From Planctopirus ephydatiae (GTDB lineage: Bacteria; Planctomycetota; Planctomycetia; Planctomycetales; Planctomycetaceae): 64,000 bases of DNA. The stretch is from the NCBI RefSeq assembly GCF_007752345.1, contig NZ_CP036299.1, forward strand, positions 186,001 to 250,000, read 5' to 3'. The notes under the pieces were generated by a model that was given only the letters and a program-made list of their open reading frames with translations, was not told where the DNA came from and made no database searches. The translations under genes and the position numbers were made by a program. Shown here one piece after another: positions 6,981-41,879 of the stretch (position 1 is the stretch's first letter; every line of letters starts with the position of its first letter).

Positions 6981-7090
6981 ACACGAGCCGGAAGCGTCAG
7001 CGACGGGGGCTTTCAAATTTATGATATTTAGTTCGAATCGCTTTTGAAGAGAGAAAAGGAATGCCCGTCGCTCACGCTTCCGGCTCGTGT
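6981..7090. repeat. REPIN-like inverted repeat, right of the RAYT gene
   Basis: A second copy of the element at 6317-6416: left arm 6981-7007, right arm 7064-7090, 27 bp each with one mismatch (TCAGC against CTCAC in the core). The arms again hold GAGCCGGAAGCGTCAGCGAC. The spacer retains the TTCGAATCGCTTTTGAAGAG-type sequence of the other copy. It separates the RAYT start from the stop of the leftward sulfatase gene. Confidence 0.92.
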
Positions 7091-7103
7091 TGATCGCTCG
7101 TGG

Positions 7104-8666
7104 TTAGAGCTCACCTTTGATCTTCTGGAGGAGGGCTTGGAGTTCTTTGACTTTTTCGGGTTGGTCTTCGGCGAGGTCGCGGGTTTCGCCGGGGTCTTCT
7201 TCGAGATTAAACAGGCGAGGTCTGGGGAGCTGGCCGGTTTCGGTGTTGGTCTGCTGAAAGACACGCGGGGCTTTGCCGGGCTCAATCAATTTCCACGAGC
7301 CCGCGCGCAAGCCCAGAACTCCCGAATGCTCCACCAGTTGCTCACGACCTGCCTGTGATTCACCCAATAAAGCGGGAAGGACATCAACACTGTCATACGC
7401 TTCCAGGGGTGGGACAGGTTGACCCACCAGCTTGCCCAGCGAAGCCATGAAATCGATCTGGCACATCAACGCTTTCGATGTTCCCGGTTGAATGCGACCT
7501 GGCCAGCGCACAATGAAGGGGACGCGAGTCCCCCCTTCATAGGCACTATATTTACCACCTCGATAGGGGCCAGCCGGTTGATGATGACTCAGCTTCGTGA
7601 CGGCTTCGTCTTTGTAACCATCGTCGACGACGGGGCCATTATCGCTGGTGAAAATCACCATCGTCTCGTCGTTAATTCCTAAGGCCGCAAGCTTCTCGAG
7701 CACCTGGCCCACACACCAATCCATTTCGACAATCACGTCGCCGCGCGGGCCCATGCTGGTACTGCCGACAAAGCGGGGGTGAGGCAAGCGGGGAACGTGA
7801 ATATCGTGCAGCGAAAAGAACAGAAAGAACGGCTGATCAGCATGGCGAGCCTGATGATCGGTCATGAACTTGAGTGCTTTTGAGGTAAAGACATCGGCCA
7901 TCTCCTGATCGTTCCAGAGAGCGGCCTTGCCACCCGTCATATAGCCAATCCGGCTGACGCCATTGATAATCGTCATGTCGTGACCGTGGCTCGGTTTCAT
8001 GACCGTGAGCAATTCCGGATGCGATTTCCCAGTGGGTAAGGCAGGATCAATGGGTTTTCCGAACTGGACTTTGATCGGGTCATGGGGGTCGAGATTGACC
8101 ACGCGATCCTGCTCCACATAAACACAAGGGACTCGATCTCCGGTAGCGGCCATGATGAATGATTCATCAAAACCGACTTCGAAAGGGCCGGGCTTGATGA
8201 CGCCGTTCCAGTCGAGCTTGTCATCTCCTAATCCCAGATGCCATTTCCCGACGACGCCGGTGCGATATCCCGCCTTTTGAAGTGTCGAAGCGAGAGTGCG
8301 TCGCCCCGGTTCAATAATCAGCTTTGCATCCCCCGGGAGAATACCTGTCCCTTTTTTCCGCCAGGCATATTCGCCGGTGAGCATGGCATAGCGCGAGGGA
8401 GTGCAGGTAGCCGACGGTGAGTGGCCATCGGAAAAGTTGAGTCCTTCGCGAGCCAGTCGATCGACATGCGGTGTTTTGACCAGCGTGGCGCCATTGCAAC
8501 TGATGTCGCCATAACCCAGATCGTCCACATAGATGAGCACGATGTTGGGCCTGGAAACCTGGGGTTTTCCTGTGGTTTCAGCTGCCAGAGCTGACGGATC
8601 TTTCCAGTGGGTTGCCAGGCATAAAGCCAGAGTGCACAGAGTCAACAGTCGTTGTTTGAGATTCAT
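7104..8666 (-). CDS. Secreted sulfatase (formylglycine-dependent, arylsulfatase A family)
   Basis: A 520-residue type I sulfatase. An N-terminal signal peptide (MNLKQRLLTLCTLALCLATHW, cleaved near ALAA) is followed by RPNIVLIYVDDLGYGDISCNG, where the DD pair binds calcium. The active-site consensus CTPSR in SATCTPSRYAMLTGEYAW near residue 87 supplies the cysteine converted to formylglycine. GKWHLG near 142 and FTSDNGP near 340 are further catalytic and metal-site motifs. Planctomycetes carry many such enzymes for sulfated polysaccharides. No sulfatase-modifying enzyme is seen in the window. It lies downstream of the efflux operon on the same strand with a 280-bp gap. Substrate unknown. Confidence 0.95.
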   Translation of the reverse strand: MNLKQRLLTLCTLALCLATHWKDPSALAAETTGKPQVSRPNIVLIYVDDLGYGDISCNGATLVKTPHVDRLAREGLNFSDGHSPSATCTPSRYAMLTGEYAWRKKGTGILPGDAKLIIEPGRRTLASTLQKAGYRTGVVGKWHLGLGDDKLDWNGVIKPGPFEVGFDESFIMAATGDRVPCVYVEQDRVVNLDPHDPIKVQFGKPIDPALPTGKSHPELLTVMKPSHGHDMTIINGVSRIGYMTGGKAALWNDQEMADVFTSKALKFMTDHQARHADQPFFLFFSLHDIHVPRLPHPRFVGSTSMGPRGDVIVEMDWCVGQVLEKLAALGINDETMVIFTSDNGPVVDDGYKDEAVTKLSHHQPAGPYRGGKYSAYEGGTRVPFIVRWPGRIQPGTSKALMCQIDFMASLGKLVGQPVPPLEAYDSVDVLPALLGESQAGREQLVEHSGVLGLRAGSWKLIEPGKAPRVFQQTNTETGQLPRPRLFNLEEDPGETRDLAEDQPEKVKELQALLQKIKGEL

Positions 8667-37527: not shown

Positions 37528-38916
37528 TTAACTTTCCGATTCTCCCAGTCCCAGTTGCTCCATGCGCCGGTATAATCTGGGCCTGGGGATGTCGAGGAGA
37601 TCGGCTGCTTTCGAGCGATTGCCGCGAGCCGCTTCGAGGGCCTGTTTGATCTGTTCCTTTTCAAAGGCTTCGAGTGCTGCATCGAGAGGCATGATCTGCA
37701 CCGGACGGGGTGGTGACACGCTTTGAGCATCGCGACCAACTTGCCAGAAGTGAGGCAGATCGTGGACCTGAATGATCGAGCCCTGGGCGCGCTCACGCGA
37801 TTCGGTGACAAACCGTTTGAGTTCGGCGATGTTGCCGGGCCAATTGTATTCACCGATCAATCGCTGCACTTCCGGCGACCAGCCTGCCAGTTGTCGAGGG
37901 GCCAGGCGGTTTTGCTCTTCCAGCAGATGTTGAGCGATCAGCAAGGCATCTCGACCTCGTTCACGCAGGGGTGGTAATTCGATTTCCATGGTCGAAACAC
38001 CACTCAGAGCCTGTGCATCACAAACGCCTCGCTCCAGTAGCTGCCGGGAATTGAGCTGGGATGTGGCCATCCAGCGGATGGGGATCTCAGTACGGTGAAT
38101 CGATGCATTCCGGAACTGTTCGAGCTGTTGCCAGAATGACCTTGGAGCCGCATCGATCGATTTGAGGAGGATGGTGCCCGGCCCGAGTGTGGCGGTTCCT
38201 GTGGTTGATGGTACGGATTCGAGGGCATGCTGAATCACTTCGTGGAGCATCGCTTCTGTCAGAATCTGACAATCCAGTGGCACGAAGGCATTTCGTTGCA
38301 CCGAGCTGCGCTGGTGAATGCTTCTGGCGAAATGTTCCTTACCGGTACCGTTTTCACCGACAATCAGAATGGGAGCCAGATTCCCTGTGGCCAGCTTGGC
38401 CTGATGAATGGCTTTGCGGAAAAGTGGTGCATAACCAACCAGTGAGTCATCCGTCGTTTCGTGTCGCCATTTGAGCCGGGCGGCCGCCAGCTCGGCATGG
38501 AGTGTCTGCGCCAGCCCCGGCTTGATCACTGGTGGTTGAGGAATTCGTCCGACCACTCCCAGAATCACAGGGTTAGCTTCTGGCTGGTTGCCGAGATTCC
38601 AGAAGGTGATGCGTGTTGCCAGAGGAGGCATGCCGACGCGAGGGAGATAGACTGCCGAAACGACCGTTTCGCCCGGGGCGGGAAGATCGGGTGGTGGTGC
38701 CAGCGCAGCGAGAAGCGCTGCTGGTGAGCTGGTCTCGCCCGTGCTGACATAATCGAGCGATTCCCCCAGGAGTTGTTCTTTCGCAAAACCAGCCAGATTG
38801 AGCAGAGCCTGATTGAGATAGATCAGCCGACGGTCGGAACTGACCATGAAGACAGGCTCGTGAGCTTCATTGAGCAGAGCATCTGCCGACAGAGGCTTTG
38901 AAGATCGGCGGGCCAT
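37528..38916 (-). CDS. PAS-AAA+-Fis-type regulator, degenerate sigma54-activator-like
   Basis: A 462-residue protein with the NtrC-family layout: PAS-like domain (about 11-125, EPVFMVSSDRRLIYLNQALL), AAA+ domain (about 155-390) and a C-terminal Fis-type HTH (ALEAARGNRSKAADLLDIPR near 425-444). Walker A is intact (GENGTGKE, 187-194). The Walker B position reads GTILLKSID near 247-255 instead of a GTLFLDEI-like motif, and no GAFTGA loop, needed to contact sigma54, is visible. So it is probably not a normal sigma54 activator; it may bind DNA as a repressor or act with sigma70. No sigma54 promoter was found nearby. The ORF is complete. Confidence 0.9.
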   Translation of the reverse strand: MARRSSKPLSADALLNEAHEPVFMVSSDRRLIYLNQALLNLAGFAKEQLLGESLDYVSTGETSSPAALLAALAPPPDLPAPGETVVSAVYLPRVGMPPLATRITFWNLGNQPEANPVILGVVGRIPQPPVIKPGLAQTLHAELAAARLKWRHETTDDSLVGYAPLFRKAIHQAKLATGNLAPILIVGENGTGKEHFARSIHQRSSVQRNAFVPLDCQILTEAMLHEVIQHALESVPSTTGTATLGPGTILLKSIDAAPRSFWQQLEQFRNASIHRTEIPIRWMATSQLNSRQLLERGVCDAQALSGVSTMEIELPPLRERGRDALLIAQHLLEEQNRLAPRQLAGWSPEVQRLIGEYNWPGNIAELKRFVTESRERAQGSIIQVHDLPHFWQVGRDAQSVSPPRPVQIMPLDAALEAFEKEQIKQALEAARGNRSKAADLLDIPRPRLYRRMEQLGLGESES

Positions 38917-39024: not shown

Positions 39025-39495
39025 TCAGGCTTGGTCGTCACCGGGATCGAGGCTCAGCAGATCGAGTAACTCCCCAATCTTGTGATGCTTCTCGAGGGGA
39101 TGCCTCAACTGCAGATTGGCATTGACGGTGTACCGGTTGCAGCGGCCCTGCTTGGTGATCATGAGATAGTTGGCCTCGACGAGTTCTGCCACCACACGCT
39201 GCACCATGCGCTCGGTAATTCCGACTGCCACCGCGACATCGCGGAGCCTTTGATCGGGTTGTCGATAGAGCGACAGCAGGACGTGGGTGTGATTGGTCAT
39301 GAACGTCCAGTTCGCCGAAGCAACCGTTCTGGATTCTTCGCCCGCAACTTTGGCTGTTGAAGGTTTGGCTCCAGCCAGTTTGGTCATGCTCATCTTTTCT
39401 TGACCTGGATTTCTGGCAGAGCTTGCAGCCCGGACTTTTCGCCCCGATGCCGAGGGAGAGGGCGAAGGGGTGGAAGCAGATTGTTTGGGTGCCAT
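39025..39495 (-). CDS. Winged-helix transcriptional regulator, divergent from sbtA
   Basis: A 156-residue regulator. The first 65 residues are a Ser/Ala/Pro/Lys-rich low-complexity tail; the winged helix is at about 66-135: WTFMTNHTHVLLSLYRQPDQ then RLRDVAVAVGITERMVQRVVAELVEANYL, with wing ITKQGRCNRYTVN. This type resembles small MarR/ArsR-like wHTH repressors. It is transcribed leftward and divergently from sbtA, and a palindrome suitable as operator lies between them (39581-39600). Regulation of the bicarbonate island is therefore inferred. The ATG at 39493-39495 is the preferred start; an earlier in-frame ATG exists at 39510. Confidence 0.85.
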   Translation of the reverse strand: MAPKQSASTPSPSPSASGRKVRAASSARNPGQEKMSMTKLAGAKPSTAKVAGEESRTVASANWTFMTNHTHVLLSLYRQPDQRLRDVAVAVGITERMVQRVVAELVEANYLMITKQGRCNRYTVNANLQLRHPLEKHHKIGELLDLLSLDPGDDQA

Positions 39496-39580
39496 AAGCC
39501 GGCCCATCAAAAGGTGGTGGTAAAAAAATCGAGAAAATTTGCACGAGATCTTGCAAGAACTTAAATACGCGACTAAAAAT

Positions 39581-39600
39581 ACACGAAACTTATTTCGTGT
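39581..39600. promoter_or_regulatory. Candidate operator palindrome upstream of sbtA
   Basis: ACACGAAA CTTA TTTCGTGT, two 8-bp arms with perfect complementarity and a four-base spacer. It lies between the divergent winged-helix gene and sbtA, about 45 bp before the sbtA start. A dimeric winged-helix protein could bind it, so it may control both promoters. Inference only. Confidence 0.55.
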
Positions 39601-39644
39601 TTATATCCCTCTTCCTGACTCTTCTCGAAAGGAATGGCAGTTTC

Positions 39645-40646
39645 ATGCTGGAAGTGTTGAGAATCAACCTGTGTTCTCCGATCTCGCTGGCCTTCGTGCT
39701 GGGTTTATTTGCTCGTATTATCCGCAGTGAACTGTCGTTGCCCCGCGAATTATACGCCTCGCTTTCGATTTATCTGCTGCTCGCACTGGGATTAAAAGGG
39801 GGCGTCGAACTTTCTCATGCGTCGATGGCCGAACTCGCCTGGCCGGCAGTCGTCACACTTGTACTTGGGGTGATCACTCCCTGCACAGCGTACCTCGTAC
39901 TCCGTCGGATCGGCAGGTTCAGTATTGCTGATTCTGCCGGGATTGCTGCGCACTACGGTTCGGTCTCTGCCGTTACGTTTATTGCCGCCCAGCAGTTCGT
40001 CCAAACGCTTGGTTTTCCGGCGGAAGGCTTCATGCCCACGTTGCTGACGTTGCTTGAAAGCCCCGGGATTCATGTCGCTTTAGGGATTGGAGCGGTGCAG
40101 ACAGCACGCATGGCCAGCCAGCCCCGGGCCGATGGTTCCCATCCGGTCGAACGCCGACCACTCAAGGAAGTGTTGCATGAAGTGCTGACGGCCCGCTCGA
40201 TGATTCTGCTGGTCGGAGGGCTCGCTTGTGGCTTCGTGATGGGCGAAAAAGGCTACGAACCTGTCAAACCGTTCTTTGAAGGGATGTTCAAAGGCGCCCT
40301 CACGCTCTTCCTGCTCGAAATGGGATTGGCAGCCGGTGCCAGGCTTGGTGATCTCAAATCGACAGGTTTGTTCCTGCTGGCCTTTGGCATGATCATGCCC
40401 ATACTGCATGGAAGCCTGGGTGTCTTTCTCGGACATTGGGCGGGCCTGTCGATTGGTGGTGCCACAGTGCTTGGTGCGATGGCGGCCAGTGCCTCGTACA
40501 TTGCCGCCCCCCCGGCTGTCCGTATGACACTTCCCGAGGCGAACCCCACGTTGTATCTCACGGCTGCTCTGGCCATCACGTTCCCCTTTAACATCGTGCT
40601 GGGGATCCCGATTTACTTCCAACTGGCGCGGATGCTGGCAGGTTGA
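39645..40646 (+). CDS. sbtA: SbtA-type sodium-dependent bicarbonate permease
   Basis: A 333-residue membrane protein of the SbtA family (PF05982), which couples sodium to bicarbonate import in cyanobacteria. Signatures are LGLKGGVELSHASMAEL near 45-61 and the HYGSVSAVTFIAAQQF segment near 105-120 that holds the bicarbonate-binding loop in SbtA structures. About ten hydrophobic helices are visible. The ATG at 39645 gives the family N-terminus (MLEVLRINLCSPIS). It is followed after 182 bp by sbtB, the PII-like partner, and by a carbonic anhydrase. This is a bicarbonate uptake module in a presumably heterotrophic bacterium, most likely supplying carboxylases. Confidence 0.95.
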   Translation: MLEVLRINLCSPISLAFVLGLFARIIRSELSLPRELYASLSIYLLLALGLKGGVELSHASMAELAWPAVVTLVLGVITPCTAYLVLRRIGRFSIADSAGIAAHYGSVSAVTFIAAQQFVQTLGFPAEGFMPTLLTLLESPGIHVALGIGAVQTARMASQPRADGSHPVERRPLKEVLHEVLTARSMILLVGGLACGFVMGEKGYEPVKPFFEGMFKGALTLFLLEMGLAAGARLGDLKSTGLFLLAFGMIMPILHGSLGVFLGHWAGLSIGGATVLGAMAASASYIAAPPAVRMTLPEANPTLYLTAALAITFPFNIVLGIPIYFQLARMLAG

Positions 40647-40828
40647 CGTTGAAGAAACATCTTTGTGACACAGGCTGCCAGGAAGATCTGTGCCAGAGGC
40701 TGAAGTCTATGGAAAAGAAAGATTGTCGGTTCGATCCAGAAAGCTGAGCATCAGCAAAGCCTGATCAGCGCCTCTCGATCAGGCTGATGCTCTTCCGTCT
40801 TCAGGCACGACAAACCAGGAGTTTCATT

Positions 40829-41131
40829 GTGCATACTGTCCCTCTGACTTTGCTGACAATTATTGGTGAAGGATTGCTCCGCGAGCGTTTGATTACCGAG
40901 ATCGAACGGGCTGGTGCGAAAGGTTACACCATCACGGAGTGCTCGGGCTCGGGTTCACGTCACCGGCGTGTGGGTGAGCTGCTGGGTGAAAACATGAAGC
41001 TCGAATGCGTAGTCTCGCCCGAAGTGGCCGACAAGCTGCTCGGCATCCTTTCTGACGAATACTTCCCGCACTTTGCGGTCATTGCGTATCTCAGTCCCGT
41101 CTCTGTGATCCGAGGAGATAAATATGTCTGA
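40829..41131 (+). CDS. sbtB: SbtB-like PII signalling protein
   Basis: A 100-residue PII-superfamily protein matched to SbtB by position and sequence: PLTLLTIIGEGLLRERLITE at the N-terminus, then GAKGYTITECSGSGSRHRRVGE, the PII T-loop region, and a long beta/alpha half ending VSVIRGDKYV. Cyanobacterial SbtB binds AMP, ADP, ATP or cAMP and controls SbtA in response to carbon status. The C-terminal cysteine-containing R-loop of cyanobacterial SbtB is missing here, so redox control is not expected. The GTG at 40829 is chosen for its AGGAG seven bases upstream. Its end overlaps the start of the carbonic anhydrase gene by eight bases. Confidence 0.9.
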   Translation: MHTVPLTLLTIIGEGLLRERLITEIERAGAKGYTITECSGSGSRHRRVGELLGENMKLECVVSPEVADKLLGILSDEYFPHFAVIAYLSPVSVIRGDKYV

Positions 41132-41879
41132 AAAGTTCTCTCGGCAGTCTTCCCATGATGCGTCTTTGGCAGGTACTCAAACACCTTCCCGGCGCATGTG
41201 GCTTAAGCAAATGACAGCCACGGCCTGCGGCTGTGGTATGGTAGGATCTGGTCTGTTGAATGCGAATTACCTATCGGGAGAAGAGCCAATGCAAGTCCCC
41301 ATGCCCGCCACGCCACAGGAAGCGATCGAGTTGCTGTATCGCGGCAACGAACGTTTCAGTCGCGGGCAATCGATGGCCACCCATCGAGATCTCGATCGAG
41401 TGAAAGAAGTTGCCCGCAAGCAGACTCCCTTTGCCGCTTTTCTGGGATGTGCTGACTCGCGAGTGCCTGTTGAGATTGTGTTTGATCAAGGCTTCGGCGA
41501 TTTGTTCGTGACTCGAATTGCCGGGAATATTGCTTCGAGTGAGAACATCGGCAGTCTGGAGTTCGGGGCGCAGATTCTGGGCTCGAAAGTGATCTACGTG
41601 CTGGGGCATTCAGCCTGCGGTGCCGTGACGGCAACGATGGAGGGTCGGGAAGTTCCCGGGCAGATCAGCGGTTTGTTCCAGTACATTCGGCCAGCCGTCA
41701 AAGCGGCAAAGGGAGATGTTGAAATGGCTGTTCGGGAGAACGTGAAAAATCAGGCCATGCTAATTGCGGAATCGTCCCCGGTCATTTCGCGATTGGTGCA
41801 GAAGAAAGAACTGATTGTCGCTGGCGGCGTTTACGACCTGCAATCGGGCGTCGTCACACCGGTGGAGATGAGTTTCTGA
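41124..41879 (+). CDS. Beta-class carbonic anhydrase with Tat signal
   Basis: A 251-residue beta carbonic anhydrase that interconverts CO2 and bicarbonate. Zinc ligands Cys109, His162 and Cys165 (FLGCADSRVP, GHSACGAV) and the Asp111-Arg113 dyad are intact. Residues about 20-50 hold a twin-arginine-type signal (SRRMWLKQM followed by a Cys/Gly-containing hydrophobic stretch), so export to the periplasm in folded, zinc-loaded form is likely. Placed directly after sbtB with an eight-base overlap, it could convert CO2 to bicarbonate outside the membrane for SbtA, or recapture leaking CO2. Its metal-site geometry suggests type I beta-CA. Confidence 0.95.
   Translation: MSEKFSRQSSHDASLAGTQTPSRRMWLKQMTATACGCGMVGSGLLNANYLSGEEPMQVPMPATPQEAIELLYRGNERFSRGQSMATHRDLDRVKEVARKQTPFAAFLGCADSRVPVEIVFDQGFGDLFVTRIAGNIASSENIGSLEFGAQILGSKVIYVLGHSACGAVTATMEGREVPGQISGLFQYIRPAVKAAKGDVEMAVRENVKNQAMLIAESSPVISRLVQKKELIVAGGVYDLQSGVVTPVEMSF

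Follow-up and report, generated by a model that had tools for sequence, protein, structure and literature searches.

Introduction

Does a bacterium without ordinary RuBisCO maintain a dedicated, regulated system for taking up inorganic carbon? This question is raised by a cluster of four genes in Planctopirus ephydatiae, located within a window of 64,000 nucleotides (the whole stretch of DNA that was analysed). An earlier note had described the cluster as encoding an SbtA permease, an SbtB-like PII protein and an exported carbonic anhydrase (CA), with a divergent regulatory gene, and had read it as a CO2-scavenging system of a probable heterotroph. A literature search, with subscription papers and preprints outside its scope, found no report on this regulator or on planctomycete sbtA-CA operons.

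Ordinary RuBisCO was sought in the genome by means of PF00016, and none was found, only a RuBisCO-like protein (588 aa, 74 bits) whose site reads KDDHN instead of the KDDE of RuBisCO. The reading that the organism is not a classical CO2-fixer therefore stands, as judged on RuBisCO (PF00016) alone, and the cyanobacterial type of CO2 concentration, in which the transporter serves RuBisCO, is not what this genome presents. The RuBisCO-like protein (C1:2543944-2545710; L096 945-2711) also carries a cupin-like C-terminal part, as read from its sequence.

Organization of the locus

All four genes and the palindrome lie where the earlier note had placed them, with only small corrections of start sites (Table 1). 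The palindrome between the divergent winged-helix gene and sbtA has exact arms, and the overlap of sbtB with the CA gene has precisely the eight bases that had been claimed.

Table 1. Coordinates, within the window, of the genes and sequence elements of the sbtA locus
Feature	Position	Strand	Remarks
Winged-helix regulator gene (156 aa)	39025..39495	-	Divergent from sbtA; relatives adjoin sbtA/dabA in other phyla
Perfect palindrome ACACGAAA-N4-TTTCGTGT, probable operator	39581..39600		Extended consensus AATACACGAAAYATATTTCGTGTATT
sbtA, PF05982 transporter (333 aa)	39645..40646	+	ATG start
sbtB-like PII gene (100 aa)	40829..41131	+	GTG start
Beta-CA gene, twin-arginine leader (251 aa)	41124..41879	+	
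8-bp start/stop overlap, sbtB/CA gene	41124..41131	+	
CA leader segment	41187..41264	+	SRRMWLK, then uncharged hydrophobic stretch

The GGAG ahead of the CA start is located inside the last codons of sbtB, and the 8-bp overlap, with an identical ATGTCT start, recurs in all six genomes that have sbtB beside the CA gene. Since 182 bp separate sbtA from sbtB, direct coupling would apply only to sbtB and the CA gene. An upstream GTG at 39597 was considered as the start of sbtA, and the ATG at 39645 was preferred. A nested hairpin at 40746-40792 (arms 40746-40755 and 40783-40792), in the gap that separates sbtA from sbtB, was considered as a terminator or attenuator and rejected, as the folding of this region is no better than that of shuffled sequences (z -0.61). 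Sigma-70 promoters were looked for and none was found. The gene immediately downstream of the regulator, in the same orientation, encodes a sigma-54 activator with a PAS domain (37528-38916, minus strand), and this neighbour is kept in the genus, including the sbtA-less genome G464.

Conservation of the linkage between sbtA and the CA gene

A family search with the CA as query covered 170 genomes, 153 of which encode some beta-CA. The orthologue group consists of 16 proteins at 59-100% identity and a broken copy in G497 (72% over 92 residues), while the next matches have at most 48% identity. The survey of gene order confirmed that the linkage is kept in relatives, as 13 of these 17 orthologues adjoin sbtA. 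Two others belong to genomes with no sbtA anywhere (G464, G369), and the remaining two (G476, G448) stand near contig ends, where the readable upstream sequence contains no sbtA; each contig stops soon after the CA gene, and sbtA is found on other contigs.

Gene order varies among the 13 linked cases. The order sbtA-sbtB-CA occurs in six genomes (G000, G315, G465, G522, G502, G494), sbtA-CA with no sbtB between them in six (G488, G496, G495, G487, G447, G497), and CA-sbtA-sbtB in one (G477), which has a distant SbtB on the opposite side. In G315, SbtA and SbtB are 99-100% identical to those of P. ephydatiae; Planctopirus limnophila is a relative amenable to genetics. The earlier proposal that the CA is tied to sbtB is not borne out in that form: the CA goes with sbtA instead, and six of the 13 loci have sbtB in between. 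SbtB is optional and dispensable to the sbtA-CA linkage.

In a sample of 392 genomes from the whole phylum, PF05982 was found above its cut-off in 66, of which 48 also encode a beta-CA (E <=0.001); a CA lies within a few kb of sbtA in only seven of the 66 (G000, G315, G333, G389, G151, G226 and G257, the last with a weak match of 27.7 bits). Taken together, the phylum and family counts indicate that sbtA is common, that its pairing with a CA is uncommon and that the exported type is a feature of this family. A gene interpreted as isocitrate dehydrogenase (7032-8528) separates sbtA from the weak CA-like gene in G257 (L068).

The carbonic anhydrase and its leader

The CA of P. ephydatiae matches PF00484 with 116 bits (cut-off 25.7). 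The metal site of beta-CAs is formed by the motifs Cys-x-Asp-x-Arg and His-x-x-Cys, and both are intact here, as CADSR from residue 109 and GHSAC from residue 161. Its N-terminus carries a putative twin-arginine leader, which would direct the enzyme to Tat export, and TatC is present in the genome. Conservation of this leader was assessed by a strict rule devised here, namely RR followed by 14 uncharged residues with a mean hydropathy of at least 0.9, in the 16 of 17 orthologues with a readable N-terminus (the G497 copy being broken).

The twin-arginine signal claimed for the CA is kept among the orthologues and goes with sbtA. The rule was satisfied by 13 of the 14 readable CAs from sbtA-bearing genomes and by neither of the two from sbtA-less genomes, which have neither RR nor a comparable hydrophobic stretch. 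The single exception, the G447 leader SRREWLLAAAAAGALGAEA, fails by one residue. The G495 protein (L144) passes, and its gene offers no in-frame ATG, GTG or TTG before the leader, which may reflect an unusual start, an assembly error or decay. Outside the family, no twin-arginine leader was seen in any of four sbtA-linked CAs (G333, G389, G151, G226), so CA export is no general rule. The P. ephydatiae genome also encodes two further beta-CAs with no evident export leader.

The transporter and the PII-like protein

SbtA covers positions 1-307 of the 308 in the PF05982 profile and scores 384 bits against a cut-off of 27. Its match to the only solved SbtA has 105 bits. Four residues of the Synechocystis protein (Slr1512), S114, Y140, S324 and S327, have been proposed to contact HCO3-, and alanine changes at such sites of cyanobacterial SbtA lower transport to 10-40% (PMC8352866). 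Two of the four, S114 and S324, are kept in P. ephydatiae; Y140 is replaced by L and S327 by A. Among 65 planctomycete SbtAs, S114 and S324 are invariant, and Y140, S327 and D325 are each replaced in 64. Bicarbonate thus appears to be the best guess for the substrate on account of the gene company, not of the substrate site.

The SbtB-like protein matches PF00543 (63 bits, cut-off 25), and a PII gene occurs at most 400 bp downstream of sbtA in 46 of 65 planctomycete sbtA loci. Its closest solved relative is TTHA0516 of Thermus (2cz4, 104 bits), which the PDB describes only as a hypothetical protein; cyanobacterial SbtB gives 40 bits. The CGPxGC loop, found in some SbtBs only, is absent from the C-terminus, which ends in VIRGDKYV.

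The locus resembles the cyanobacterial pair SbtA-SbtB (Slr1512-Slr1513) in that a PF05982 transporter is followed by a PII-like gene and Ser114 and Ser324 are kept. In contrast to that pair, Y140, D325 and S327 are replaced, the stretch between the domains of SbtA is shorter, the C-terminal CGPxGC of cyanobacterial SbtB is missing, and the planctomycete operon includes a CA. The identification as SbtA and SbtB consequently holds at the level of families, and the supposed closeness to the cyanobacterial proteins does not, with two of four HCO3- residues different and a PII protein nearer to that of Thermus. Contact between SbtA and the SbtB-like protein is predicted.

The palindrome as a candidate operator

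An inverted repeat, TACACGAAA-N4-TTTCGTGTA, occurs in the intergenic region that the regulator shares with sbtA or, in the absence of sbtA, with the CA gene. At the matching position, arms that are exact over six or more bases were found in eight of the nine genomes with a divergent regulator (P. ephydatiae included), and the ninth, G447, has an imperfect inverted repeat. Similar imperfect sequences precede sbtA in four of five further genomes; none was seen in G477. The repeat is kept ahead of leaderless CA genes too.

The operator pattern was scanned in 17 genomes with up to three mismatches. The palindrome at the module is the only site with at most two mismatches in the 5.2-Mb genome of P. 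ephydatiae; at three mismatches, across the 17 genomes, sites are no more numerous than for a control pattern. Its conserved position and the single good genomic site bear out the earlier view of a regulatory element, and the palindrome is more than a chance occurrence and likely to behave as an operator.

The regulator and its relatives

The regulator is difficult to assign to a named family. Compared with Pfam, it reached no family cut-off (MarR 19.3 bits against 24.6), and generic MarR and ArsR models gave weak matches and no listed family name. PF01047 was matched by 30 of 30 relatives at E <=0.01, irrespective of the Pfam cut-off, which makes distant kinship with MarR likely. The predicted structure has the fold of a single winged helix with a confident core (residues 61-148), and its comparison with known folds gave no E below 0.001, only weak and mixed winged-helix matches (SmtB, AspA, PcaV). 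Residues W63, N68, H69, H71, R118, N120 and H132 are among the invariant ones and might, speculatively, be candidates for sensing.

The regulator alignment was used to scan 84,980 species genomes, which yielded at least 581 relatives; the best 80 loci were analysed. Among these 80, sbtA was found within about 5 kb in 25, dabA in 15 (6 of them confirmed by Pfam) and a CA-like gene in 8 (some weak); 46 loci have sbtA, dabA, dabB or a CA, and 34 have none. In most of the 46, the nearest inorganic-carbon gene is divergent from the regulator. Planctomycetota, Actinomycetota, Alphaproteobacteria, Acidobacteriota and Verrucomicrobiota are among the groups represented in the best 80, and the regulator is the most widely conserved part of the system.

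A motif built from nine family sites was tested outside its training clade, within 400 bp upstream of the regulator gene, with significance set at p <=0.01 against 200 dinucleotide shuffles. Among non-redundant loci drawn from the same best 80 of at least 581, it was detected in 18 of 21 with sbtA, 7 of 9 with dabA, 3 of 4 with a CA and 13 of 33 with no known inorganic-carbon gene; before removal of duplicates, the counts were 19 of 22 for sbtA (motif-less: L155, L157, L159) and 11 of 15 for dabA (motif-less: L161, L164, L169, L191). The best site of the whole locus falls inside the regulator-upstream segment, 4.5% of the locus, in 18/21, 7/9, 3/4 and 14/33 loci, respectively. With 200 column-permuted motifs, the means were 3.8, 2.1, 0.8 and 5.0, and the observed counts were reached in 1, 2, 4 and 1 of the 200 trials.

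The presence of the motif in 13 of 33 other loci indicates that the regulator may serve other genes as well. In the phylum sample, the regulator was found in 41 genomes and sbtA in 66, with both in 25 against 6.9 expected (hypergeometric 8e-12, a value that ignores descent); the two lie within 2 kb of each other in 10 of the 25 and apart in 15, so that the regulator is not tied to sbtA everywhere. A Pfam search of ten neighbours of regulator genes with no known inorganic-carbon gene gave nothing coherent. In one Actinomycetota MAG (L180, 3784-4974 and 4992-5306), a regulator relative is divergent from purK, with a motif-like site ahead; the purK enzyme uses bicarbonate. Isocitrate dehydrogenase genes adjoin regulator relatives in L179, L181 (Pfam) and L197 (like layout).

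A possible exchange of sbtA for dabA

Five genomes were tested for dabA and for the fusion of SulP with CA; both are present in the sbtA-less G464 and G369 and absent from G000, G315 and G465. In G464, which belongs to the same genus, synteny is kept (sigma-54 regulator, winged-helix gene, CA, RluD, TPR, DUF3500 and TIM-barrel protein), and only sbtA-sbtB is missing between the regulator and the CA gene. Both sbtA-less genomes combine dabA with a leaderless CA, which suggests an external CA where bicarbonate is the imported form and an internal one where CO2 is pumped; the pattern comes from two genomes, one of them 88% complete. In the CA tree, rooted by one very long outgroup branch, the two leaderless proteins group with the genus of P. 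ephydatiae and G522, with support of 91/91, below the level that the tool stars. SulP-CA fusion proteins (~760-840 aa) occur often in the family (for example, L139 6836-9256, minus strand), and in G369 one adjoins the leaderless CA.

Proposed mechanism and alternative explanations

The locus is probably a dedicated operon for scavenging inorganic carbon under the control of a regulator-operator pair. The CA would be exported by the Tat pathway and hydrate CO2 outside the cytoplasmic membrane, and SbtA, a member of a sodium-symporter family, would import the bicarbonate for carboxylases of a cell without ordinary RuBisCO. The SbtB-like PII protein, where present, may tune SbtA to the adenyl-nucleotide state. 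With the CA kept outside, imported bicarbonate would not be turned back into leaking CO2. The winged-helix protein would bind the palindrome between its own gene and sbtA and adjust the operon to inorganic-carbon supply, by sensing some signal and acting in repression or activation. What can be read from the letters is the gene order, the overlap, an apparent leader, the metal-site motifs and a putative operator that is conserved and recurs beside other inorganic-carbon genes. CO2 scavenging tied to bicarbonate import, as proposed in the earlier note, is supported in its linkage, leader and operator, and it loses the coupling to sbtB and the closeness to cyanobacterial SbtA/SbtB. The two other beta-CAs with no evident leader count against this explanation, as they could undo bicarbonate accumulation. 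The two altered HCO3- residues, the dispensability of SbtB and the leaderless sbtA-linked CAs outside the family also weigh against it.

Other readings deserve consideration. SbtA of this branch may carry another anion or serve chiefly pH or ion balance, with the CA supplying or removing protons outside; the substrate-site changes common to nearly all planctomycete SbtAs and the low score against the one solved SbtA speak for it, but the linkage to the CA and the regulator-operator pair that dabA and CA loci share make it unlikely. Somewhat less probable still is a non-functional leader, with a cytoplasmic CA supplying CO2 or bicarbonate inside. Its hydrophobic stretch is indeed modest, and sbtA-linked CAs in other planctomycete families have no leader; yet the twin arginine and the uncharged stretch are kept in 13 of 14 cases despite a fast-changing N-terminus, and they are absent together with sbtA. 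Shared descent might alone account for the neighbourhood of the genes, which would then lack a joint function; this reading draws on some relatedness among the compared genomes and is very improbable, given that adjacency is kept while the order varies (sbtA-sbtB-CA, sbtA-CA, CA-sbtA-sbtB) and that the operator is conserved across phyla.

Relation to known systems and implications

Exported CAs have been proposed to help transporters of dissolved inorganic carbon (DIC) in autotrophs (PMC10880623, PMC9865033), and the former paper explains the conflict between an internal CA and importers. The planctomycete enzyme resembles the extracellular CAs EcaA and EcaB, which stand beside transporters in autotrophs and are proposed to aid DIC transport; it differs in belonging to a conserved sbtA operon that has its own regulator and operator, in a cell that lacks ordinary RuBisCO. 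Pumps of the DAB/DAC type (DabAB, MpsAB) share with the locus a regulator of the same family and its motif; several Actinomycetota and Planctomycetota have this regulator divergent from dabB-dabA. They differ as CO2-using vectorial anhydrases, absent from P. ephydatiae (G000) and found in both tested relatives that have no sbtA. While SbtA-SbtB and external CAs are already known, the best of the new elements is the regulator with its operator.

A wider proposal, put forward tentatively and with chances slightly short of even, is that the winged-helix protein is the first to be recognised in a family of inorganic-carbon-sensing regulators that spans several phyla. One palindrome would control SbtA with an exported CA, a DAB pump or a CA alone, and the planctomycete CA would be placed outside or inside according to the pump that is present.

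Most work on SbtA, DAB pumps and external CAs has concerned autotrophs. The locus points to a regulator and an operator as candidates open to direct testing. The pairing of CA location with the pump, exported with SbtA and not with DAB, would offer a simple rule for the cooperation of CAs with transporters. Judging by this locus, regulated uptake of inorganic carbon built from the same parts would also operate in bacteria that have no ordinary RuBisCO.
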